From: Chloroflexota bacterium
GTDB lineage: Bacteria; Chloroflexota; Anaerolineae; DUEN01
DNA: 50,610 nt
Reading direction: 5' to 3'
Assembly (NCBI GenBank): GCA_013152435.1
Contig: JAADGJ010000118.1
Span: 1-50,610, forward strand
Every line of letters begins with the position of its first letter. The stretch's first letter is position 1. Below the pieces are notes generated by a model. It was not told where the DNA came from and searched no databases. It saw only the letters and a list, made by a program, of their open reading frames with translations. Position numbers and translations under genes: made by a program. Below are positions 3,486 through 50,610 of the stretch, piece by piece.

Positions 3486-3726
3486 CAGCGTGTCTGAAAA
3501 TTTACCGGCAAGATGTCTGAGGGACCTCCCTCAACGACCAACTCCACAGGGGGAGGTGTGGAGGGGGCCTCCCCTCCACGGAAATCCCACTTTTCCAGCC
3601 TGCACCTGCCTCTCTCGGTCCTTCCCGAAGGGTCCGGGCCGAGGCTGGGCAGATCGAAGACAAAAGAAGGGCTTTTTCCGGAGGGCCTCTCCACAGCAGA
3701 AGCAACGGCATTTTTCAGACACACTC
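3486..3726 (+). mobile_element. MITE copy 1 (241 bp, IS5/IS1031-like ends)
   Basis: Non-autonomous element. The left end CAGCGTGTCTGAAAA and right end TTTTTCAGACACACTC form terminal inverted repeats. A direct repeat TAA at 3483-3485 and 3727-3729 is the target duplication, and the left TAA is the stop codon of the agmatinase. The interior holds CCTGCC...GGCCGAG hairpin segments shared with the other copies. It encodes no protein. Confidence 0.85.
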
Positions 3727-3810
3727 TAACAGCTCGCTGAAACCGCCCTGCCAAGCGCATCAGGCGTATCACGCCCTGGACTGAGGAATTTCTTCGATGA
3801 GAAAAACGCC

Positions 3811-6891: not shown

Positions 6892-7146
6892 GAGCGTGTC
6901 TGAAAATTTCCCGGCAAGATGTCTGAGGGTCTCCCCCAACTCCAGATCCACAAGGGGAGGTGTGGAGGGGAGGACCCCTCCACGGAAATCCCACTTTTCC
7001 GGCCTGTACCTGCCTTTCTCGGCCCTTCCCGAAGGACCCAGGCCGAGACCAGGCAGGTCGAAGGCAAAAGAAGGGCTTTTTCCGGAGGGGCTCCGCCCCT
7101 CCGAGCCTCCCCACAGCAGAAGCAACGGCATTTTTCAGACACACTC
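6892..7146 (+). mobile_element. MITE copy 2 (255 bp)
   Basis: Left end GAGCGTGTCTGAAAA, right end TTTTTCAGACACACTC. The target duplication TTA is at 6889-6891 and 7147-7149. It lies between the two methyltransferase genes. Several open frames run through it and even into the next gene, but they are by-products of its GC-rich sequence. Confidence 0.88.
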
Positions 7147-7182
7147 TTAGATGGATCACCCGAGATGCAGGAGGAGAGAGCG

Positions 7183-17746: not shown

Positions 17747-17759
17747 AGAATCGTCTTGA

Positions 17760-18011
17760 GGCGTGTCCGAGGAATCCAGTTGCTCCTGCGACGGGGAGGG
17801 GCGGAGCCCTTCCGAAGAATGCCTTCCTTCCGCCTCTGGCCTGTCCGGCCTTGGCCCAGATCCTGCGGAGAGGGCCAAGAAAGGCAGGTGCAGGCCGGAA
17901 ACGTGCGGGCATCCGGCTCTGTGGAGGGGAATCCCCCCACAGCTCCTCCCGTGGAGCGCATGGCTGAGGGATGCCCTCAGACACCTTGGCGATAAATCTT
18001 CAGATACGCTC
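17760..18011 (-). mobile_element. MITE copy 6 (reverse, diverged)
   Basis: The plus strand starts GGCGTGTCCGAGGAATCCAG and ends AAATCTTCAGATACGCTC, matching the family in reverse orientation with more changes than the other copies. TTGA flanks it on both sides (17756-17759 and 18012-18015). It lies between a consensus promoter and the lipoprotein gene. Confidence 0.75.
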
Positions 18012-24924: not shown

Positions 24925-25054
24925 ATCGGAGGGGCTTACCCCGGGTGGAGACGATTTTCCGGCCTGCACCTGCCTTTCTCGGCCCTTCCTGAAGAGTCCA
25001 GGCCGAGGCCGGGCAAGTCGAAGGTAGAAACAACGGCATTTCTCAGACACACTT
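24925..25054 (+). mobile_element. MITE copy 7 (left part missing)
   Basis: The interior (CCTGCACCTGCCTTTCTCGG) and right end (GGCATTTCTCAGACACACTT) match the family; the left terminal repeat and about 100 bases are absent. Confidence 0.7.
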
Positions 25055-27769: not shown

Positions 27770-28012
27770 GAGCGTATCTGAAAATTTACCGGCACGATGT
27801 TCTGAGGGGGTCTCCCTCAACGACCGGCTCCACAAGGGGAGGTGCGGAGGGGGCCTCCCCTCCACGGAAATCCCACTTTTCCAGCCTGCACCTGCCTCTC
27901 TCGGCCCTTCCCGAAGGACCCAGGCCGAGGCCAGGCAGGTCGAGGGCAAAAGAAGGGCTTTTTCCGGAGGGGCTCCCCCCAGCAGAAGCAACAGCATCTT
28001 TCAGACACACTC
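27770..28012 (+). mobile_element. MITE copy 3 (243 bp)
   Basis: Left end GAGCGTATCTGAAAA, right end CTTTCAGACACACTC, with target duplication TGA at 27767-27769 and 28013-28015. It lies between the surface protein gene and the transglycosylase promoter. Confidence 0.88.
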
Positions 28013-28076
28013 TGAGGGACGGATGAACGTCGCCCGGGCGTCCTCCATCCGCCGACCACCCGTGCGGCAGATAGGT

Positions 28077-34827: not shown

Positions 34828-35221
34828 GAGCGTGTCTGAAAATTTACCAGCAAGGTGTCTAAGGGGTCTCCCTCAACCACCAGCTCCACCGGGGGTGGTA
34901 TGGAGGGGACCTCCCCTCCACGGAAAACCCTGCTTTTCCTGCCTGCACCTGCCTTTCTCGGCCCTTTCCGAAGAACCCAGGCCGAGGCCAGGCAGGTCGA
35001 GGGCAGAAGAAGGGCTTTCTCCGGAGGGGCGGAGCCCCACCCTCTGGTTTGGCCCTTTGGGTAGCGAAGGGCAGTGCCCTTCGCTACCCATACCAAGATA
35101 CGGGATACCATAAAAGAGGCCGCATATATAGGACCTCAAAGAAAAAGGCCAAACTCCAGGGAGGGGCGGAGCCCCCCGGGCCTCCCCACGGCAGAAGCAA
35201 TGGCATTTCTCAGACACACTC
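34828..35221 (+). mobile_element. MITE copy 4 with nested insertion (394 bp)
   Basis: Left end GAGCGTGTCTGAAAA; right end CATTTCTCAGACACACTC. The left flank is TCA and the right TTA, an imperfect TNA duplication. About 130-140 extra bases lie between roughly 35036 and 35165, including a 31-base palindrome (35059-35089). Confidence 0.82.
35059..35089. repeat. 31-base palindrome nested in MITE copy 4
   Basis: GGGTAGCGAAGGGCA, central G, then the exact reverse complement of the first arm. Part of extra DNA inside the MITE. Confidence 0.8.
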
Positions 35222-35337
35222 TTAGTGATTCCTCCTTTCAGCGTTCCCCTGTCTTTCGAAGCAACGGCATTTCCGGGGGGAAAGCCTCGCCCGCTCCCAA
35301 AATTGAACCATAAATCTATTTTTAAATTTGTAAATCT

Positions 35338-41138: not shown

Positions 41139-41213
41139 GCCCCTGTAGCTCAGTTGGACAGAGCGAGGGCTTCCTAAGCCCTGTCGTCGGGGGTTCGAGT
41201 CCCTCCAGGGGCG
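41139..41213 (+). tRNA. tRNA-Arg (CCU)
   Basis: Acceptor GCCCCTG/CAGGGGC, D arm AGCTCAGTTGGACAGAGC, anticodon loop TTCCTAA (anticodon CCT), T arm GGGGGTTCGAGTCCCTC, discriminator G. CCA is not encoded. Confidence 0.95.
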
Positions 41214-41439
41214 CCTGATATTCCTCTATCATCCACCCCACATTCCCACCATCACATCCGGTGACATGGCGGCTGACGGAATGAGGGGCGCCATGTCGAA
41301 TGAGCCAGGGTCTCGGCGAGTCCCCACGGGAATCCAGGGGCAGCCGACGAGACCTCGACACACTGACGATCGCATTTCCTCTCTTTCGCTGGAGCCTCAA
41401 GGATAACCCACGCCCCATCGCAAAGGGGATGATCAGCTC

Positions 41440-41958
41440 ATGCGCTACGCAGCCGCCGCCATCACGATAGCCATCCTCCTGGTCGGCACCCTCACCATGG
41501 CCGTGTTCGGCCAAGACGCCAGCACATCGCTCCAACCGGGCATCGCTCGTATAAGACCGCTGCAGGCGAACATCCAGCAACGGATTCCCATATCCCTCGC
41601 TATGCTCGTGCCAATCGGACCATCCGCCACGCGAACCATCACATTGCCAGTGACGCTCGAGCTCAACCTGCGGATTATCCTGACCAACACCACAGCCGCT
41701 ATCACGAAGACGAGCCCCCACAAGACCAAAGCTATATCCGAGACCCAGCCGGCCGCATGTCCCGGGGGATGCATCACCCAACCGGACCCATCGTGCGACA
41801 TCAAAGGCAACGTGAATCCGAGATCCGAGACGAAGATCTATCACACGTCCACCAGCCGCTGGTATAGCAGAACGAAAATCAGGCCAGAAGAAGGGGACCG
41901 CTGGTTCTGCACGGAGGAAGAGGCCCAAGAGGCCGGATTCAGACCCCCCAAAAAGTGA
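41440..41958 (+). CDS. Secreted protein with C-terminal sunset-type domain
   Basis: A 172-residue exported protein. Signal peptide AAITIAILLVGTLTMAVFGQ, then a module (residues ~35-90, RPLQANIQQRIPISLAMLVP and TLPVTLELNLRI) that is homologous to the next gene's N-terminal half. After a linker comes a cysteine-containing domain, PSCDIKGNVNPRSETKIYH, then YSRTKIRPEEGDRWFCTEEE followed by AQEAGFRP. This matches the small sunset-type module often found at the end of secreted nuclease-like proteins. No enzyme domain is present. The ribosome site is weak (AAAGGGG, 13 bases away). Confidence 0.75.
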   Translation: MRYAAAAITIAILLVGTLTMAVFGQDASTSLQPGIARIRPLQANIQQRIPISLAMLVPIGPSATRTITLPVTLELNLRIILTNTTAAITKTSPHKTKAISETQPAACPGGCITQPDPSCDIKGNVNPRSETKIYHTSTSRWYSRTKIRPEEGDRWFCTEEEAQEAGFRPPKK

Positions 41959-41972
41959 ACAGGAGCAAACAC

Positions 41973-42632
41973 ATGCGACGCATGATCCTCACCATCGCCA
42001 TAACCGTCCTGCTACTTAGCACCCTCGCCCTGGCTGTGTCCGGCCAGGAGGGCGATACCCCGGCCGAGCCCATTATCGCCCAAATCCAACCGCTGCTCAT
42101 CAACATCCAACAGCAAATACCCGTATCCGTCACCCTCTCCGTCCCCATCGGCCCGACCACGACTCAAACCGTCACCCTTCCGCTGGTACTCGACCTCAAC
42201 CTGCAAATCGGCCTGGCCGACACCGTCACCGCCACCATCGAGACGATCACGACAACTGAGCCCATTTCTATCACCGTAAGCGAAATGGCAGAAGAAGGCG
42301 AGGAACTAAAGGACAACCTTGGAATCCCATATGAGCTGGAGAGCACAGATGGCGTTGAGATCATCCAATGGACTGCGTCCAAGAATATCTTCGACCACTT
42401 TCAGATAGTTGGTGAGTTGCGCAACGTTGATGAGGAACACGTACTGGATTATGTGAATCTGGTTGTTAGCATGTACGACGAGGACGGGAAGTTGCTGGAT
42501 GTGGCGAGCGGTTTCATGGAACTCGACAAAGTGGAACCAGGTGGAACATCACCGTTTAGGGTAAGTACCCCAGTATCTGCGGAGGACGTAGCCCGATATC
42601 TGGTGCAAGTGGAGGCTCGGTTCGAAAAGTAA
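41973..42632 (+). CDS. Secreted protein with shared N-terminal module and FxLYD-like domain
   Basis: A 219-residue exported protein. Signal peptide MRRMILTIAITVLLLSTLAL, then the module QPLLINIQQQIPVSVTLSVP and TLPLVLDLNLQIGLADTVTA shared with the preceding protein. The C-terminal 110 residues form an immunoglobulin-like FxLYD-type domain (HFQIVGELRNVDEEHVLDYV, NLVVSMYDEDGKLLDVASGF, EPGGTSPFRV). The start at 41973 has AACAGGAG; a GTG at 41955 overlapping the upstream stop is the alternative. Probably cotranscribed with the gene before it. Confidence 0.78.
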   Translation: MRRMILTIAITVLLLSTLALAVSGQEGDTPAEPIIAQIQPLLINIQQQIPVSVTLSVPIGPTTTQTVTLPLVLDLNLQIGLADTVTATIETITTTEPISITVSEMAEEGEELKDNLGIPYELESTDGVEIIQWTASKNIFDHFQIVGELRNVDEEHVLDYVNLVVSMYDEDGKLLDVASGFMELDKVEPGGTSPFRVSTPVSAEDVARYLVQVEARFEK

Positions 42633-42693
42633 CACGAGGCAAGGCTGCACGAATGGCAGATATGGCTCCTGGCGGTGAGTCGATCCCACAGGC

Positions 42694-42722
42694 TTGCGCC
42701 TCTCACACTCCCGATGTATGAT
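42694..42722 (+). promoter_or_regulatory. Promoter of the first PEP-CTERM gene
   Basis: TTGCGC (42694-42699), 17 bp, TATGAT (42717-42722). Start near 42729, 25 bases before the ATG. Confidence 0.7.
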
Positions 42723-42753
42723 TTTTGTGCAGCGATACAGAAGGAGTGCCAAC

Positions 42754-43179
42754 ATGATGGGCAGAACGATCGCCGCCGCGATGTTCTTCGTCCTTCTCCT
42801 CAGCACGCCCGCCTTTGGGCAGCGCAATCCGTGGCCCCTCCCAAGCGATTACCCTCGTTTCCCCACCGCAGGGATGACCGAGTTTCAAGGTACGCTGGAT
42901 CAGGCCTGCGCCGGACTGCCCGTCTACATCTACGCAGGGACAGGGCCGGAGGGAGTGCTGCTAGGCAGTTCCTTAGTAAATCCAGACGGCTCTTTCTCGG
43001 TCACCCTGAACCGTCCTCTGGCCGAAGATGAAACCATGACCGTCTTCGCCGAATGCCGTGACGGGGCTTATGTCTGGGACATCTTTCACATCCCTCCTCC
43101 TATCATCCCCGAACCAACCACCCTTGTACTCGTAGGTTCTGGCCTGGGACTGCTGGCGCTGCGCCGCCTGTGGCACTAG
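42754..43179 (+). CDS. PEP-CTERM sorting domain protein (1)
   Basis: A 141-residue exported protein: signal peptide TIAAAMFFVLLLSTPAFGQ, a beta-rich central domain (EFQGTLDQACAGLPVYIYAG, LLGSSLVNPDGSFSVTLNRP, MTVFAECRDGAYVWDIFHI) and a C-terminal PEP-CTERM signal: IPEPTTLVLVGSGLGLLALR with RLWH at the end. Such signals are recognised by exosortases, which cut and attach the protein at the cell surface, often together with polysaccharide. No exosortase is in the window. GAAGGAGTGCC precedes a double ATG. Confidence 0.85.
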   Translation: MMGRTIAAAMFFVLLLSTPAFGQRNPWPLPSDYPRFPTAGMTEFQGTLDQACAGLPVYIYAGTGPEGVLLGSSLVNPDGSFSVTLNRPLAEDETMTVFAECRDGAYVWDIFHIPPPIIPEPTTLVLVGSGLGLLALRRLWH

Positions 43180-43217
43180 TTCCGTCTCGGCGTCACTTCG
43201 TGCTTCAGGAGGGCCCC

Positions 43218-43670
43218 ATGCGCTGGATGAGCATGATTGCTGGGTTCTTGGTACTCATCCTACCTCTGACCACTCACGCACAGCCCAACCCACCCTGGTG
43301 TACACCCCAAGGTACATATGTCCCTAGCGATTATAGGCCTACCCCAAAACCTCCAACTACTATAATTCAAGGTATTACAGACCACAGATGTATAAACTCA
43401 ACTATATACGTCTTCTCCGGTAAGACGCCCGATGGTGAATTACTTGGCTACAGCACTGTAGAATCGGATGGGACGTTTACCATCCACCTCTCACGTCCTA
43501 TGCGCTATGACGAAACGATACTGGTCTACGCTGACTGTCCTGACTGGTGTGTTTGGGAAGTATTTAAATGGACTGCCCCTCCCATCATCCCCGAACCGGC
43601 CACCCTCCTGCTCGTAGGCAGCGGGCTTGTGGCGCTGGGGCTAAAAGTTCTTCGTAGTCGACATCGGTAA
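43218..43670 (+). CDS. PEP-CTERM sorting domain protein (2)
   Basis: A 150-residue paralogue of the preceding protein: signal peptide WMSMIAGFLVLILPLTTHAQ, the same central domain (IQGITDHRCINSTIYVFSGK, GELLGYSTVESDGTFTIHLS, ILVYADCPDWCVWEVFKW) and PEP-CTERM tail IPEPATLLLVGSGLVALGLK with RSRHR at the end. The middle of the gene (about 43315-43410) is visibly richer in A/T than the surroundings. AGGAGGGCCCC precedes the ATG. Gap to the previous gene: 38 bases. Confidence 0.85.
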   Translation: MRWMSMIAGFLVLILPLTTHAQPNPPWCTPQGTYVPSDYRPTPKPPTTIIQGITDHRCINSTIYVFSGKTPDGELLGYSTVESDGTFTIHLSRPMRYDETILVYADCPDWCVWEVFKWTAPPIIPEPATLLLVGSGLVALGLKVLRSRHR

Positions 43671-43696
43671 TGCTTCCTTACGTTTCTGGCACTTGA

Positions 43697-43928
43697 GAGT
43701 GTGTCTGAGAAATGCCGTTGCTTCTGCTGTAGGGAGGCCCGGAGGGGCCCCGCCCCTCTGGGAAAAGCCCTTCTTCCGCCTTCAACCTGCCTGGCCTCGG
43801 CCTGGGTCCTTCGGGAAGGGCCGAGAAAGACAGGTGCAGGCCGGAAAAGCAGGGTTTCCGTGGAGGGGAGGTCCCCTCCACACCTCCCCCTGTGGAGCTG
43901 GTAGTTTCTGAGACTTCTGCTGAAATAG
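43697..43928 (-). mobile_element. MITE copy 5 (reverse, distal end truncated)
   Basis: The plus strand begins GAGTGTGTCTGAGAAATGCC after TGA (43694-43696), the expected terminal repeat. The other end degenerates after GTAGTTTCTGAGACTTCTGC and lacks the final terminal repeat. It stands directly before the broken PEP-CTERM gene. Confidence 0.78.
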
Positions 43929-43937
43929 CCTACTTAG

Positions 43938-44129
43938 GAGGCAATCCATGCCCATAATGGTATTTGGGTTTGGGATATTCTCGCAGTTGCCCCTCCCATC
44001 ATCCCCGAACCGACCACCCTCCTGCTCGTAGGCAGCGGGCTTGTGGCGCTGGGGACAGGCGTGCTTCGCGACGCACGGAAGAGGAATTCCCCCAGGAGCA
44101 CCTTGTTCCACTCCATCGACGCACATTGA
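43938..44129 (+). pseudogene. 3' remnant of a third PEP-CTERM gene
   Basis: The frame opens after a TAG at 43935-43937 and has no start codon. It reads NGIWVWDILAVAPPIIPEPT, then TLLLVGSGLVALGTGVLRDA, then 18 more residues to TGA. This corresponds to the last 45 residues of the two intact neighbours, with a longer tail. The signal peptide and central domain are missing, and MITE copy 5 occupies the place where they should be. Confidence 0.8.
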
Positions 44130-44170: not shown

Positions 44171-45370
44171 TCACCCGCCCGAGTCACGAACCGGCAGATC
44201 CCCCATCGAATAGGGTTCCGGGACCCTTCGCGAGCGCGTGCTCGCCAACCGAAGCAGCATCTGCAATCCGATCAGGGACAGCCGAGGCTGGAACACCAAT
44301 AGCCGCCAGAAGGTCTTCGTCAGCTCATCTCGGGTATACCGCTCCAAAAGCCGCTGCACAGGGGGCGTGATACATCTCACCAGGCGATCATAGACGGCGT
44401 TATCCATGCGGTCGAGCAACACCCGGAGCAGCCAGTGCAGGTCCAACTCCCGCTTGAGCGCGCGCAGCTCCCGGGCATAGGAGGTCCCCCGCAACAGAGA
44501 GCGCACGGCGGCCTCCGCCCCCCACAGGCCGGTAACGGTGCCCCCCACCGTGGTGACCTTCACCTGGCCGGCCGCATCGCCCACCAGCAAAACCGGCGCA
44601 TCTCCCACACGTCCCCACGGCCGCAGGCGTGGATGGTGCATGGCGACCAGCCCGCCCTGATAGGCCAGCGGCTCCAGATCATGTCGGTCCAGGAAACGCG
44701 CCAGCAGATCCCTCGTCTCGACCTTATGGTCCCCAACCAGCCCCAAAACCCCCCGCTCCGACGACTCCGGGATCAGCCAGTAGAAGAAACGGGTGTCCTG
44801 AGCGTCAAACCAGACCTTCGTCACGGATGGATCCCATCCCGACGGCAACGGGATCTCCGCCTGCAGGATCGGCACGACGGGGGGGCGCTTGATCCCCGCC
44901 GCCGCGGCGACGTCGCTGAACGGGCCATCCGCACCGATGACCGCCCGGGCATGCACCGTTCTCTCCCGCCCATCAGCCGTGCGCAAACATAAGGCCACTC
45001 CCCTCGAGCCCACATCAAAGGCCATAAAACGGTGACTATAATGGAGGTCCGCTCCCGCCTCCTGCGCTCTTCGAGCCAGCGCCTGCGCAAACTGCCGTCG
45101 CTCGATGATCAGATCCGGCTCCCGCAGCGTGATCCGGACGGCCGCGCCCGGGGTGGCCACGGCCATCACCTGGACCTGATGAAGGACTGCCGTTTCGGGA
45201 ACCTGGGTGAAGAGGTGAGACCACCGCGGAGTCACGATCAGCGTACGACGAGGAGGCGCAATCCCCTCCCTCCTCTCGAAAATCCCCACTCGCCATCCTG
45301 CCCGGGCCAATCGCTCTGCCGCGTACAGTCCAGCGGAAGATGCCCCGATCACAGCAACGTCTAGATCCAT
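44171..45370 (-). CDS. Geranylgeranyl-reductase-like FAD-dependent oxidoreductase
   Basis: A 399-residue flavoprotein of the p-hydroxybenzoate-hydroxylase fold. FAD motif DVAVIGASSAGLYAAERLAR, then RAVIGADGPFSDVAAAAGI and the second FAD motif PVLLVGDAAGQVKVTTVGGT followed by VTGLWGAEAA, typical of geranylgeranyl reductases and digeranylgeranylglycerophospholipid reductases. These saturate isoprenoid chains of quinones, carotenoids or lipids; the substrate here is unknown. It is a single gene with its own promoter, 235 bases from the polysaccharide cluster. Confidence 0.83.
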   Translation of the reverse strand: MDLDVAVIGASSAGLYAAERLARAGWRVGIFERREGIAPPRRTLIVTPRWSHLFTQVPETAVLHQVQVMAVATPGAAVRITLREPDLIIERRQFAQALARRAQEAGADLHYSHRFMAFDVGSRGVALCLRTADGRERTVHARAVIGADGPFSDVAAAAGIKRPPVVPILQAEIPLPSGWDPSVTKVWFDAQDTRFFYWLIPESSERGVLGLVGDHKVETRDLLARFLDRHDLEPLAYQGGLVAMHHPRLRPWGRVGDAPVLLVGDAAGQVKVTTVGGTVTGLWGAEAAVRSLLRGTSYARELRALKRELDLHWLLRVLLDRMDNAVYDRLVRCITPPVQRLLERYTRDELTKTFWRLLVFQPRLSLIGLQMLLRLASTRSRRVPEPYSMGDLPVRDSGG

Positions 45371-45604: not shown

Positions 45605-46927
45605 TCATCGCGAGGGTCGAATCATCTTGTGTAACGTCACCAAACCCTCACGAGCGATATCGAACCAACGGTAAGGATAGTATAAAGGCCACAACCAATC
45701 AGGGCGCGGACGATACCGCCAACGCATGAATGTCGGATCCGGCCAAAGCACGCCCCGAATCAGACGCCAGCGCGCCCGCCGATCCAACGAGAACAGGTTG
45801 GCCCACAAGCGGGTAGCCCTCGTCTGCAAAGACGACGCCTTACGCCGCACCAGATATTCGGAGTCTGCCTCCTGGTCCTCGGCTAGGCGATCGAGGAACC
45901 CCTCGGGCAAGGGCGTCCCATAGCTCTCCGACATCCTCTGGAGCGCCGCACGAAGCGCGGCCGTCCACTGAAACGCCCGGGCCTGTTGCGCCAGCAGATC
46001 CCAGTCCAAACGCTCTCCACATCGACTCACCAGCAGGTGAAGATCATACAGCCAGAGCAGATAGGCCTGAGCTCCCCCATGCTGCAGCATCAAATGTGCG
46101 GACAGATAGAGCAGGTGAGCCGTAGGGGTTAACATGTACAAACACACGCGAGCCGCGTCCCTCTCCCCTACGCACTCGGCACCCAACGCCTCCCCATCCA
46201 CCGACAGGGGCTCCACCTGCGCCCAGAACCAGTCCAGAGGCGGGGTGCGCCAGTCCGCATCGCCCGCTACCAGATTCCAATGCAGCTCGACAACGACGTT
46301 CTCCTGAGGGCCCCCCAGCAAACGCACATGATGCCCGATGAGCCGATTGATCCCAGGGCTCACCTCCGGGATCCGCTCCTCGTATCCCAGGGACCGCATC
46401 GCCCGCATGGCCGCTTCCATGAAAGCGCGCGGGACCAACAAGTCCAGGTCGCTCAGGGGACGCAGGGCCACGGAGGGATACACGGTGGACGCCAGCGCCG
46501 CCCCCTTCAGCACCACGATGGGGAGCCTGCCGTCCGCCGTCAGGGCCTGGTCATCCGCCGACAGCTCATCCTGGAAGGCGGAGGCGATGCGCTCCAGCTC
46601 CTGATAGATCAGGGTGTTGTGAGCGGCCGTGGCATAATGCCGCCGGGCAAGCCCCCATTGTAGATCCTCCGGCCAATGATCGAGGCAGCCGGATTCCCTC
46701 AACGACCAGTACAGGAGCGGTGCCACGCCCTCCTCTCTCGCTATGGTCAGCAATCGCTCGTAATGCTCGGGGCCGAACGATGACCAGGGCACGAGATCCG
46801 CCCGCTCCGTCAGGACCAGGCGAAGCGCCGTGTAAAGGGCCTCCTCATCAGGCAACACAGAACTCCCCTCCCTCAAGCGCCCATCACCGCTCGACACCAG
46901 CTCGGGAGCCGTTCGTCCGAGGCGCAC
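45605..46927 (-). CDS. Nucleotidyltransferase family protein (NTP_transf_5 type)
   Basis: A 440-residue protein of the putative nucleotidyltransferase family common in capsule and exopolysaccharide clusters. Key segment: IVVLKGAALASTVYPSVALR followed by PLSDLDLLVP, where DLDLLV provides the metal-binding aspartates of a minimal nucleotidyltransferase. It also has VVVELHWNLV and HLLYLSAHLMLQHGGAQAYL further on. Its chemical role is not established. The GTG start overlaps the TAG of the phosphodiesterase gene by one base (TAGTG), indicating translational coupling. Confidence 0.82.
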   Translation of the reverse strand: MRLGRTAPELVSSGDGRLREGSSVLPDEEALYTALRLVLTERADLVPWSSFGPEHYERLLTIAREEGVAPLLYWSLRESGCLDHWPEDLQWGLARRHYATAAHNTLIYQELERIASAFQDELSADDQALTADGRLPIVVLKGAALASTVYPSVALRPLSDLDLLVPRAFMEAAMRAMRSLGYEERIPEVSPGINRLIGHHVRLLGGPQENVVVELHWNLVAGDADWRTPPLDWFWAQVEPLSVDGEALGAECVGERDAARVCLYMLTPTAHLLYLSAHLMLQHGGAQAYLLWLYDLHLLVSRCGERLDWDLLAQQARAFQWTAALRAALQRMSESYGTPLPEGFLDRLAEDQEADSEYLVRRKASSLQTRATRLWANLFSLDRRARWRLIRGVLWPDPTFMRWRYRPRPDWLWPLYYPYRWFDIAREGLVTLHKMIRPSR

Positions 46928-48348
46928 TAAACCAGGGGCCGACCATTACCGCTATCCGGCCCCTGCACCCCCATCAACTTCAGCACCGTCGGGGCGATGT
47001 CATACAGCCGAGCCCCCTGCACCCGCTGATGATTCCGCCTATCTCGCGGATCGTACAGGATGAACATCCCGTTCTGGGCATGGTTGCAGTCATCCGGCCC
47101 CGTATCGTTCTCAAACGTGTAGATATCCCCATGCCCCAGCGACCCCACCGATCGCCACAGCAGATCACCGAAGTAGACCATCAGATCGGGCGCCACGCCG
47201 TTCACCGCCCGATAGATCTCCTGCGGCTTGAAGACCCGGGTGCCGATATCGCTCCCGTCCGGCCCCGGGATAGCCCGGATCTTCTCGGCCAGCTCGTTGC
47301 GAAAGTCCTCATACTCCTCCGGTGGAATCACCCCTTGCGGCTCTCGGTCACGCACGTTCAGGAACACCCGGCCGTAATATCCACCGCTCCCCCAGGCCCT
47401 GGTCCGTGACCAATCGACCTCCAGATCCTCAAAGCGCACGAGCTTCCCCGGCTCCGGATCCTGCTTGAACGCCAGATATCCCTCTCTCCACAGCCATTCG
47501 TTGATGCAGATCCCACCCTCCATACGCTTGGCGCCGTGATCGGAGACGACCAGCACCACCGTGTCCCGATCGATCTTGTCCAGCCACTCACCGATCTTGC
47601 GATCGATATACACGTAATAGTCCCGAATCGCATGCTCGTAGCGGTTTCCGGGCTCGTACCGGCGGTGCTGGGGATCATGATAACTCCAGAACCCGTGATG
47701 GATCCGATCCACCCCGATCTCCATCACCATGAAGAAATCCCATGGCTTGCTGGTCAACAGGTGATCCACCACCCGGAACCGCTTCTCCGTCATGTCCCAG
47801 ATCTGCTTCAGGAGATTGTCCTTGTCGTCCGTGCGGAACTGCGGCACATCCACGTCATAATCCGGGGCGATCGAGAGCACCTCATATTTCAACTCGGCCG
47901 GATAGGCGAAATCGCTCTGAATCCCCGGCGTTAGGAACCCCGAGATCAGGTACCCGTTCAACGGCTTCACCGGGTACGTCTGCGGCACGCCGATCACCAC
48001 GGAGGTCTTCCCCGCCTCGGACAGGTAATCCCACACCCGTTTCGCCCGCACGACGTTGTTAGTGGCGATGAACATCTTATCGTAGCTGTGGTTGGCCCGG
48101 TTACGGAAGCCATAAACGCCCAGCTCCCCCGGGTCCCATCCCGACAACATGCAGGTCCACGCGGGCACAGTGATGGCCGGTATACACGAATCCAGATCGC
48201 CCCACAGGCCGTTCTCGGCCAGGAAGCGCAGGTTTGGCAACTCATCCCGCCAGCGGTCGAAGACCAGCTCCGGCGCGGCACAATCCAGGCCGATCACGAA
48301 AACCTTCCGATCCCTGCTCCTCCGCCGCAATCGATCCCAAAACCCCAT
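46927..48348 (-). CDS. Alkaline-phosphatase-superfamily phosphodiesterase
   Basis: A 473-residue member of the type I phosphodiesterase/nucleotide pyrophosphatase group. Metal and nucleophile sites: FVIGLDCAAPELVF (Asp ligand), SCIPAITVPAWTCMLSG (nucleophile Thr), MEIGVDRIHHGFW (Asp and His ligands) and VVSDHGAKRMEGGICINEWL (Asp-His), with a late His in DCNHAQNGMFIL. No signal peptide, so cytoplasmic, as in homologues found in bacterial polysaccharide loci. The start MGFWDR at 48348 follows GGAGGT closely; an ATG five codons upstream is the alternative. Confidence 0.85.
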   Translation of the reverse strand: MGFWDRLRRRSRDRKVFVIGLDCAAPELVFDRWRDELPNLRFLAENGLWGDLDSCIPAITVPAWTCMLSGWDPGELGVYGFRNRANHSYDKMFIATNNVVRAKRVWDYLSEAGKTSVVIGVPQTYPVKPLNGYLISGFLTPGIQSDFAYPAELKYEVLSIAPDYDVDVPQFRTDDKDNLLKQIWDMTEKRFRVVDHLLTSKPWDFFMVMEIGVDRIHHGFWSYHDPQHRRYEPGNRYEHAIRDYYVYIDRKIGEWLDKIDRDTVVLVVSDHGAKRMEGGICINEWLWREGYLAFKQDPEPGKLVRFEDLEVDWSRTRAWGSGGYYGRVFLNVRDREPQGVIPPEEYEDFRNELAEKIRAIPGPDGSDIGTRVFKPQEIYRAVNGVAPDLMVYFGDLLWRSVGSLGHGDIYTFENDTGPDDCNHAQNGMFILYDPRDRRNHQRVQGARLYDIAPTVLKLMGVQGPDSGNGRPLV

Positions 48349-48394
48349 CTTACCTCCGCTCATGAAACGTGTTCGATCCCCTCATCTCAAGGGG

Positions 48395-49747
48395 CTACCC
48401 CGAGTTGCGGGGCAGGACATATCGCGTATCCACGATCAGCGCGGCCCGTCGGGCGATCTCCCCCCAATCGTAGTCGCTGTGATCCGTCGCGATCACCACG
48501 CAGTCGGCCTCCGCCAGCGCCCGATCCAAGTCCGGCTCCGACGTCATCTCGAAGCCGTGATGAGAGACGCCCGGCACGTAAGGATCATGATAGCGAACGT
48601 CCGCCCCTTTCGCCCGCAACATCTCGATGATGTCCAGCGCCGGCGACTCCCGGGTATCGTCGACATCCCGTTTGTACGCCACCCCCAGCACCAACACCCG
48701 GCTTCCCTTCACCGGCTTGCCCGCCTCGTTCAACGCATCCTGAACCTTGTTCACCCAATATTGGGGCATCTCGCTGTTGATCTCACCAGCGAGCTGGATG
48801 AACCGGGCGTTGTAATTCAACGCCTTCAGCTTCCAGGATAAATAGTGCGGGTCCAGAGGAATGCAATGGCCGCCAATCCCCGGACCCGGCATGAACGGCA
48901 TGAAGCCGTACGGCTTCGTCGCCGCCGCCTCGATCACCTCCCGCACGTCCACCCCCAGCTTATCGCACATCAACGCCACCTCGTTGACCAGGGCGATGTT
49001 CACCGCACGGAAGGTGTTCTCCAGCAGCTTGGACATCTCGGCCGCGGCGGGGGAAGAGACCGGCACCACCCGCTCGATCACGGCCTCATACAAGGCGATG
49101 GCCACCCGCAGACAGGCGGGCGTCACACCTCCCACCACCTTGGGGGTGTTACGAATCGTGTAATCCGTGCGCCCGGGGTCGATCCGCTCCGGCGAGAACG
49201 CCAGGAAGAAGTCCCGACCCACGCGAAGTCCACTCCGCTCTAACGTGGGAAGCAGCAACTCCTCCGTCGTCCCCGGATACGTGGTGGACTCCAACACCAC
49301 CAGCATATCGGGATGCAAGTGCGCCGCGATGCCCTCCGCCGCCGCCAGCACGTAGCGGATGTCGGGATCCCGACTCTTGTTGAGCGGCGTGGGCACGCAG
49401 ATCAGGGCCGCCTCCGCATCGGCCAGCGCGCCGTAGTCCGTCGTTGCATCCAGGCGGGCGTCCTCCCCACGGACGGCACGGGCCAGCTCCGCGGAGGGAA
49501 CATCTCGGATGTACGACACCCCCCGCCGGATCGACTCCACCCGGGTGGCGTCCGTATCGATGCCCACCACCCGATAGCCGACCTCAACGAAGGCCATCGC
49601 CAACGGCAGCCCCACGTACCCCAGGCCCACGATGGCCACCGTCGCCTGGCGCGCCCGAAAACGCTCCATCAGGCGAAGAGCGGATTCGGGGAGCTCCGCT
49701 TCCGCTCCCACCCGCTCAGGGCCCTCCCCTTCCAACAAGCCCTCCAT
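48395..49747 (-). CDS. UDP-sugar 6-dehydrogenase (WbpA/WecC type)
   Basis: A 450-residue NAD-dependent UDP-sugar dehydrogenase making a UDP-uronic acid, probably from UDP-GlcNAc or a ManNAc derivative. The N-terminal Rossmann domain reads VAIVGLGYVGLPLAMAF, then ALICVPTPLNKSRDPDI and VLESTTYPGTTEELLLP. The middle domain has KLLENTFRAVNIALVNE and the catalytic Cys in GPGIGGHCIPLDPHYLSW; the C-terminal domain has VLVLGVAYKRDVDDTRESPA. The ATG at 49747 follows GGAGGCGGAGGGC; a GTG one codon earlier is possible. It provides an activated acidic sugar for the cluster. Confidence 0.92.
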   Translation of the reverse strand: MEGLLEGEGPERVGAEAELPESALRLMERFRARQATVAIVGLGYVGLPLAMAFVEVGYRVVGIDTDATRVESIRRGVSYIRDVPSAELARAVRGEDARLDATTDYGALADAEAALICVPTPLNKSRDPDIRYVLAAAEGIAAHLHPDMLVVLESTTYPGTTEELLLPTLERSGLRVGRDFFLAFSPERIDPGRTDYTIRNTPKVVGGVTPACLRVAIALYEAVIERVVPVSSPAAAEMSKLLENTFRAVNIALVNEVALMCDKLGVDVREVIEAAATKPYGFMPFMPGPGIGGHCIPLDPHYLSWKLKALNYNARFIQLAGEINSEMPQYWVNKVQDALNEAGKPVKGSRVLVLGVAYKRDVDDTRESPALDIIEMLRAKGADVRYHDPYVPGVSHHGFEMTSEPDLDRALAEADCVVIATDHSDYDWGEIARRAALIVDTRYVLPRNSG

Positions 49748-49768
49748 CACGCCCTCCGCCTCCGGGTT

Positions 49769-50610
49769 CTATTCCCGCCCGTCCGGCCGCTGGACCGCCT
49801 GATGATCCACATCCCGATCCTGATCCATCTCATGGGCAAGCCAATCCCGCACCCGGATCAGGGTCTCGTCCAGGGAGATGGTCGGGCGCCAGCCCAACAG
49901 GTCCTGTATCCGACGGGTGTCCGGGACCCGCCGGCGCATATCCTCAAACCCGGGCGCGTAAGCCTGATCGTATGGCACGTACACGATCGGCGAATCGCTC
50001 CCGGTGACCTCCTTCACCCGCCGCGCCAGCTCCTCGATCGTCACCTCCTCCGTGCTCCCCACATTGAACACGCGCCCCATGGCCTCGGGATGGGCGATCA
50101 ACCCCTGGATGGCCCTCACCGTGTCCAGCACGTCGCAGAAGCAGCGGCTCTGTTGCCCGTCGCCGTAGACGGTGATGGGCTCCCCGCGCAGGGCCTGCCC
50201 CACGAAACGCGGCACGACCATCCCATATCGTCCCGTCTGGCGCGGCCCCACGGTGTTGAACAGTCGGGCGATCACAACCGGCAATCCGTGCTCCCGATGA
50301 TACGCCAGCCCCAGGAACTCGTCCACCATCTTGGAGGCGGCGTAGGACCACCGGCTGCGAGAGGTCGGCCCCAGCACCACGTCGTCGTCCTCCCGGAAGG
50401 GGACCCGAATCCCCTTCCCGTACACCTCGGACGTCGACGCGAGCAACACGGGCACCCGATAGCGCGCGGCCGCCTTCAGCACCGCCTCCGTCCCCATCGC
50501 GTTCGCCTCGATGGTGTAAGTGGGGTGGCGCACGATCAGGTCGACACCTACGGCCGCCGCCAGATGGCAGATGGCATCGCACTCGCTGACCAGGCGATCC
50601 AGGACGATCT
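49769..50610 (-). CDS. NAD-dependent sugar epimerase/dehydratase (5' end outside window)
   Basis: The C-terminal 279 or so residues of an extended SDR acting on nucleotide sugars; the start and the NAD motif lie beyond the right edge. Visible: ICHLAAAVGVDLIVRHP, the catalytic region ASTSEVYGKG and Tyr-x3-Lys in WSYAASKMVDEFLGLAY, then LFNTVGPRQTGRYGMVVPRF, VYGDGQQSRCFCDVLDTVRA and RRVPDTRRIQDLLGWRPTIS. It resembles UDP-glucuronate decarboxylase and UDP-glucose 4-epimerase types. The gap to the dehydrogenase is about 20 bases, so they form an operon. Confidence 0.88.
   Translation of the reverse strand, partial: IVLDRLVSECDAICHLAAAVGVDLIVRHPTYTIEANAMGTEAVLKAAARYRVPVLLASTSEVYGKGIRVPFREDDDVVLGPTSRSRWSYAASKMVDEFLGLAYHREHGLPVVIARLFNTVGPRQTGRYGMVVPRFVGQALRGEPITVYGDGQQSRCFCDVLDTVRAIQGLIAHPEAMGRVFNVGSTEEVTIEELARRVKEVTGSDSPIVYVPYDQAYAPGFEDMRRRVPDTRRIQDLLGWRPTISLDETLIRVRDWLAHEMDQDRDVDHQAVQRPDGRE

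Follow-up and report, generated by a model that had tools for sequence, protein, structure and literature searches.

In the sections cited here, the 2006 survey of the PEP-CTERM/EpsH system describes diverse small proteins with a signal-like N-terminus and a tail formed by a PEP motif, a transmembrane segment and basic residues, several of them per genome and expanded as paralogues within it, together with an EpsH-family enzyme (Haft 2006, PMC1569441). The same sections confine PEP-CTERM to outer-membrane bacteria, and a 2025 paper, in its cited part, still calls exosortases Gram-negative (PMC12188702). Here we describe an exosortase system of canonical type whose host lineage shows no outer-membrane hallmarks, starting from an island of small, putatively exported proteins at positions 41440-44129 of a contig of a Chloroflexota bacterium. 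The window analysed is this entire contig (C118, 50,610 bp), taken from a genome of 4.97 Mb in 149 contigs that is 95.8% complete; positions without a contig name are window coordinates, and C-numbers are contigs of the same genome.

The likeness to the surveyed system extends to the architecture of the proteins, the number of substrates, the enzyme family and the paralogous expansion. The differences from the cited sections are that neither Omp85 (60 genomes) nor LpxC (own genome) was found here, and that the enzyme gene lies outside a polysaccharide cluster. The parts are thus canonical, and the departure from the published picture is the host lineage. Two other systems are comparable in logic. 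Archaeosortase ArtA combines an exosortase-like enzyme with a tripartite tail signal and a lipid anchor at the end, its substrates being lipid anchored in haloarchaea, as stated in the cited part of PMC7157517, but the motif and the organisms are others. The sortase/LPXTG system, as mentioned in the cited sections of PMC1569441, shares the C-terminal sorting logic, by which single-membrane cells direct proteins to their surface, whereas its enzyme and motif are unrelated. Models of exosortase function have been shaped by the published rule that ties PEP-CTERM to an outer membrane; a full system without outer-membrane assembly genes either breaks this rule or signals an unrecognised outer membrane in Chloroflexota. 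A literature search, the scope of which did not take in Haft 2012 as the likeliest earlier report, returned nothing on point for exosortase/PEP-CTERM in Chloroflexota or monoderms, and the proteins may already have been named by NCBI automatic annotation.

PEP-CTERM signals and their exosortase

The signals were sought with the profiles PF07589 (cut-off 20.7 bits in the protein search) and TIGR02595 (cut-off 16 bits), at E<=0.01 across genomes and with 14 genomes as the control set. PF07589 exceeded its cut-off in the genome search at three places in the window, corresponding to genes 3 and 4 and to the gene 5 fragment (Table 1), and at five more places outside it; the three PEP-CTERM endings that an earlier note had read from the letters of this DNA are therefore genuine matches. 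At the protein level gene 3 reaches 20.1 bits with PF07589, against 21.6 in the genome search, and 20.0 bits with TIGR02595, while gene 4 reaches 23.3 and 18.2 bits, respectively. The elements of the curated definition, a PEP motif, a hydrophobic helix, a basic end and a score over the cut-off, are all present. Genes 3 and 4 are paralogues (45% identity), and a further paralogue on C59 scores 19.1 bits with TIGR02595. The search for additional PEP-CTERM proteins that the earlier note had recommended gave a genome total of eight intact proteins and the gene 5 fragment; the genes outside the window are spread over six other contigs, four of which carry Ig-like (immunoglobulin-like) paralogues. 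Chance can be excluded, since PF07589 matches none of the 14 controls (nor does TIGR02595) and none of 41 exosortase-free relatives, and since a stricter pattern found two matches among the open reading frame tails of the window against 0.21 expected from shuffled tails. For gene 4, a strand-rich domain followed by a helix from the PEP motif is predicted (strands at residues 49-117, helix at 127-149, mean pLDDT 70.8). The model gives weak matches in the PDB to surface Ig-like domains (gingipain, Bap; TM-scores ~0.4), in a comparison comprising one match at E<=0.001 and an alignment of only two sequences. Elsewhere in the genome, a CRISPR-like array of ~26 repeats (L048:219-2149, own C58) ends ~240 bp ahead of a PEP-CTERM gene.

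The exosortase, which the earlier note placed elsewhere in the genome and whose absence it regarded as fatal to its proposal, is encoded in full at C37:72663-73403 (PF09721 E=3.6e-60, 204.7 bits against a cut-off of 25.7; TIGR02602 167.4 bits against 105.55). Its conserved cysteine and histidine are visible in the motifs VGAQCSG and YHDYSG, as expected of an EpsH-family enzyme. It scores below the cut-off of every named Xrt subfamily, the nearest being exosortase A (XrtA, TIGR03109) with 162.7 bits against 208. An EpsI-like DUF3485 gene follows directly (60.7 against 26.1 bits), and the pair is present in all five named close relatives. In a genome of the same genus the gene order is conserved on the gyrB side (gyrB, mutS2 and a TetR-like gene, the last two names being our own reading of the sequence), with exosortase and EpsI 80-81% identical; this synteny indicates that the locus is not a contaminant. 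The exosortase has its nearest named relatives in a Caldilineae bacterium and in Anaerolineae bacteria (the latter at 53-74% identity), all of them Chloroflexota, in keeping with the host that the earlier note had thought probable. Just upstream of the exosortase lies a PEP-utilising mobile-domain gene (L042:8885-10264, own C37) that has no match in the syntenic stretch of the same-genus genome.

Distribution across Chloroflexota

An exosortase match (E<=1e-5) is found in 29 of 400 genomes of the phylum and in 19 of 60 relatives, both sets including the own genome; the 19 span 13 family codes. PEP-CTERM follows the enzyme closely: PF07589 matches 15 of the 19 exosortase relatives versus 0/41 of the others (Fisher p=7e-11, a value that ignores shared ancestry), and TIGR02595 matches 13/19 versus 0/41 (13/60 overall). 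A second set of 52 genomes includes five genomes of named relatives, which partly repeat the first set and all have PEP-CTERM proteins (5/5). The remainder of this set yielded such proteins in 6/10 genomes with a strong full-length exosortase, 0/1 with an intermediate match (G270), 1/16 with weak or divergent matches and 1/20 without exosortase. Four other genomes of the phylum (G444, G416, G447 and G081) moreover have their PEP-CTERM and exosortase genes close together. A supported branch (95/88) of the exosortase tree sets apart 20 rows, which are all from Chloroflexota and include L052, identical to L096. Five Chloroflexota rows from other classes stand on its opposite side, so that the phylum as a whole does not form one clade. 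Most simply, this pattern would reflect an ancient system of Anaerolineae that was lost many times, with distinct types in the other classes. Long, weak exosortase-like proteins (open frames of ~550-810 aa, e.g. L024-L033 and L041) were also observed in other classes of the phylum, the majority of them in genomes that gave no PEP-CTERM match.

A conserved PEP-CTERM protein beside transporter genes

One PEP-CTERM protein of ~190 residues is conserved at ten loci, one per genome, the nine others being 49-77% identical to the own copy; at one locus it has 322 residues and the domain occurs twice. All ten loci have a similar second domain or protein downstream, and 9/10 have a cyclase-like protein upstream, the latter matching squalene-hopene cyclases and not cobalamin carriers. 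Most of these loci are ~3 kb long; four include CbiQ, the two long ones (L044 and L138) also CbiO, and L044 the S component of an energy-coupling factor (ECF) transporter, and the core order of the operon is kept in all ten within the limits of locus length. This ECF-linked protein ties the signal to a transporter of the cytoplasmic membrane, and offers the best hint that the signal serves to anchor proteins in that membrane. A transcobalamin-like reading of the same protein was rejected, solved structures lending it no support and the best profile match having E=0.73.

Outer-membrane hallmarks and competing explanations

Omp85/BamA was found in 0/60 genomes, the own genome included, versus 7/14 controls, among them E. 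coli, Caulobacter, a cyanobacterium and Thermus, and the search of the own genome for LpxC was likewise negative. By these proxies the host would lack the outer membrane with which the 2006 survey associates the system, and the oddity raised in the earlier note, that PEP-CTERM is typical of outer-membrane bacteria, becomes sharper than it was first put. A 2022 study, in its cited part, likewise gives the outer-membrane gene pattern of Chloroflexi as that of monoderm groups and describes the microscopy as unsettled (PMC8871954). We tentatively propose, at somewhat less than even confidence, that Anaerolineae may be single-membrane cells that operate a complete exosortase/PEP-CTERM pathway, which would anchor proteins on the outside of the cytoplasmic membrane or in the capsule, and in which one conserved substrate would serve an ECF-type importer of vitamins or metals. 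If this is true, the function of exosortases would be general membrane anchoring and not outer-membrane delivery. Several points weigh against the main reading set out below, that genes 3 and 4 encode substrates of the C37 exosortase. Missing Omp85 and LpxC mean that hallmarks are absent, which does not prove a single membrane. The EpsI-like protein falls 0.4 bits under the NCBIfam cut-off of TIGR02914 (42.4 against 42.8). The exosortase/EpsI pair is flanked by gyrB, mutS2, the TetR-like regulator and sbcC, outside any polysaccharide cluster, and four of the 19 exosortase relatives (G409, G128, G434 and G441) have no PEP-CTERM protein at E<=0.01.

The strongest competing explanation is an outer membrane that has gone unrecognised in this lineage and across which the proteins would be delivered in Gram-negative style. 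Given that Omp85 is absent from every sampled genome and present in half of the controls, and that the own genome has no LpxC, we regard this as unlikely. It could also be argued that the PEP-CTERM tails do no more than fix the proteins in the membrane by their C-terminus, and that the exosortase has other protein substrates or survives as a relic. Tails of the PEP-TM-R type are physically ordinary tail anchors, and the four exosortase genomes without recognisable PEP-CTERM proteins would fit such a view, but the PEP motif is conserved across unrelated proteins, no genome of the 60-genome sample has the signals without the enzyme (G046, in the 52-genome set, being the one exception) and the two genes share a neighbourhood in four genomes, which makes this explanation improbable. 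An origin of the island in a Gram-negative bacterium, whether by recent import or through contamination of the assembly, is very improbable: the GC content of the island (0.569 versus 0.641 for the window) and the adjoining tRNA gene would agree with it, whereas the PEP-CTERM genes and Ig-like paralogues on other contigs, the same-genus synteny of the exosortase, the 20 Chloroflexota rows beyond the supported branch of its tree and the closest relatives of genes 3 and 4, which comparisons suggest lie in the own genome and its kin, all speak against it. A Gram-negative contaminant contig was accordingly rejected on the exosortase synteny and tree.

Genes 3 and 4 probably encode substrates of the C37 exosortase, with the membrane hold, cleavage, re-attachment and adhesive role set out as follows. 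By analogy with the described systems, their products would be exported through Sec, and the PEP-TM-R tail would hold them in the cytoplasmic membrane with the Ig-like domain outside. The exosortase, with its EpsI-like partner, would then cut them at the tail, and the cut products may be re-attached to lipid or exopolysaccharide, where they could act as small adhesive or matrix proteins. Because outer-membrane assembly genes are missing, these proteins would more likely end up on the outside of the cytoplasmic membrane, in the wall or in the capsule than at an outer membrane.

The island and its polysaccharide neighbourhood

The island consists of four small genes, whose N-termini are hydrophobic and signal-like by a simple heuristic, and one dead fragment, at the coordinates that the earlier note gave for five consecutive genes or remnants (Table 1). 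Genes 1 and 2 have the common module that it perceived, an N-terminal stretch of ~76 aa at 53% identity, and carry a sunset domain (54.8 bits against an NCBIfam cut-off of 27) and an FxLYD domain (34.9 bits against 23), respectively. The module was seen nowhere else in the 60 relatives, save for a weak partial match on own C119; homologues of gene 2 occur in 19/60 relatives (own included), and nearly all match the FxLYD part. Neither gene has PEP-CTERM, and neither need be part of the exosortase pathway. The frame of gene 5 begins past an in-frame stop and has neither a start codon ahead of the PEP motif nor a signal peptide, for which reason it is considered a dead fragment; 67 nt of its signal region are 99% identical to gene 4. 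The island probably grew by tandem duplication and decay.

Table 1. Coordinates of the island, its flanks and the ECF-linked operons
Feature	Position	Strand	Remarks
tRNA-Arg (CCT)	41139..41215	+	left flank of island
Gene 1	41440..41958	+	putative exported protein (signal-like N-terminus), C-terminal sunset domain, no PEP-CTERM
Gene 2	41973..42632	+	putative exported protein, N-terminal module as in gene 1, C-terminal FxLYD domain, no PEP-CTERM
Gene 3	42754..43179	+	141-aa putative Ig-like surface protein, PEP-CTERM signal 43105-43167
Gene 4	43218..43670	+	150-aa putative Ig-like surface protein, PEP-CTERM signal 43587-43646
Dispersed ~211-bp repeat	43696..43906	+	copy between gene 4 and gene 5 fragment
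Gene 5	43947..44129	+	dead C-terminal fragment of PEP-CTERM protein, signal 44001-44054, frayed tail
Geranylgeranyl-reductase-family FAD protein	44171..45370	-	between island and polysaccharide genes
NTP_transf_5, phosphodiesterase, UDP-sugar dehydrogenase and epimerase genes	45605..50533	-	reaching contig end
Operon in own genome	L044:6998-13755 (own C106)		cyclase-like, conserved PEP-CTERM protein, second similar protein, CbiQ, CbiO, ECF S component
Operon in G405	L138		cyclase-like, conserved PEP-CTERM protein, second similar protein, CbiQ, CbiO

The earlier note also placed a sugar-nucleotide cluster 1.5 kb from the island and saw in it the usual link between exosortase and polysaccharide. 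The distance holds for the NTP_transf_5 gene, which ends at 45605, whereas the nucleotide-sugar genes proper (UDP-sugar dehydrogenase, epimerase) extend from 48395 to the contig end. This closeness says little, because homologues of the two nearest genes, geranylgeranyl-reductase-like and NTP_transf_5, are also adjacent in G407, a genome of the same family without exosortase or PEP-CTERM; the polysaccharide genes may be mere neighbours of the island. As an empty site, G407 offers homologues only for these two genes to the right of the island, in another context, and no insertion is claimed. The exopolysaccharide link known from the 2006 survey is weak at the window locus and is found through C59, where the paralogue of genes 3 and 4 adjoins a Wzz/GNVR chain-length protein and a glycosyltransferase/Bac_transf protein; this arrangement is the usual association and a better link than that of the window. 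Finally, further pieces of the ~211-bp repeat, 71-96% identical to the island copy, lie in the window at 3533-3727, 6938-7147, 17755-17957, 24955-25053, 27819-28013 and 34875-35222, and the repeat is present in 5/7 other stretches of the own genome that were examined.
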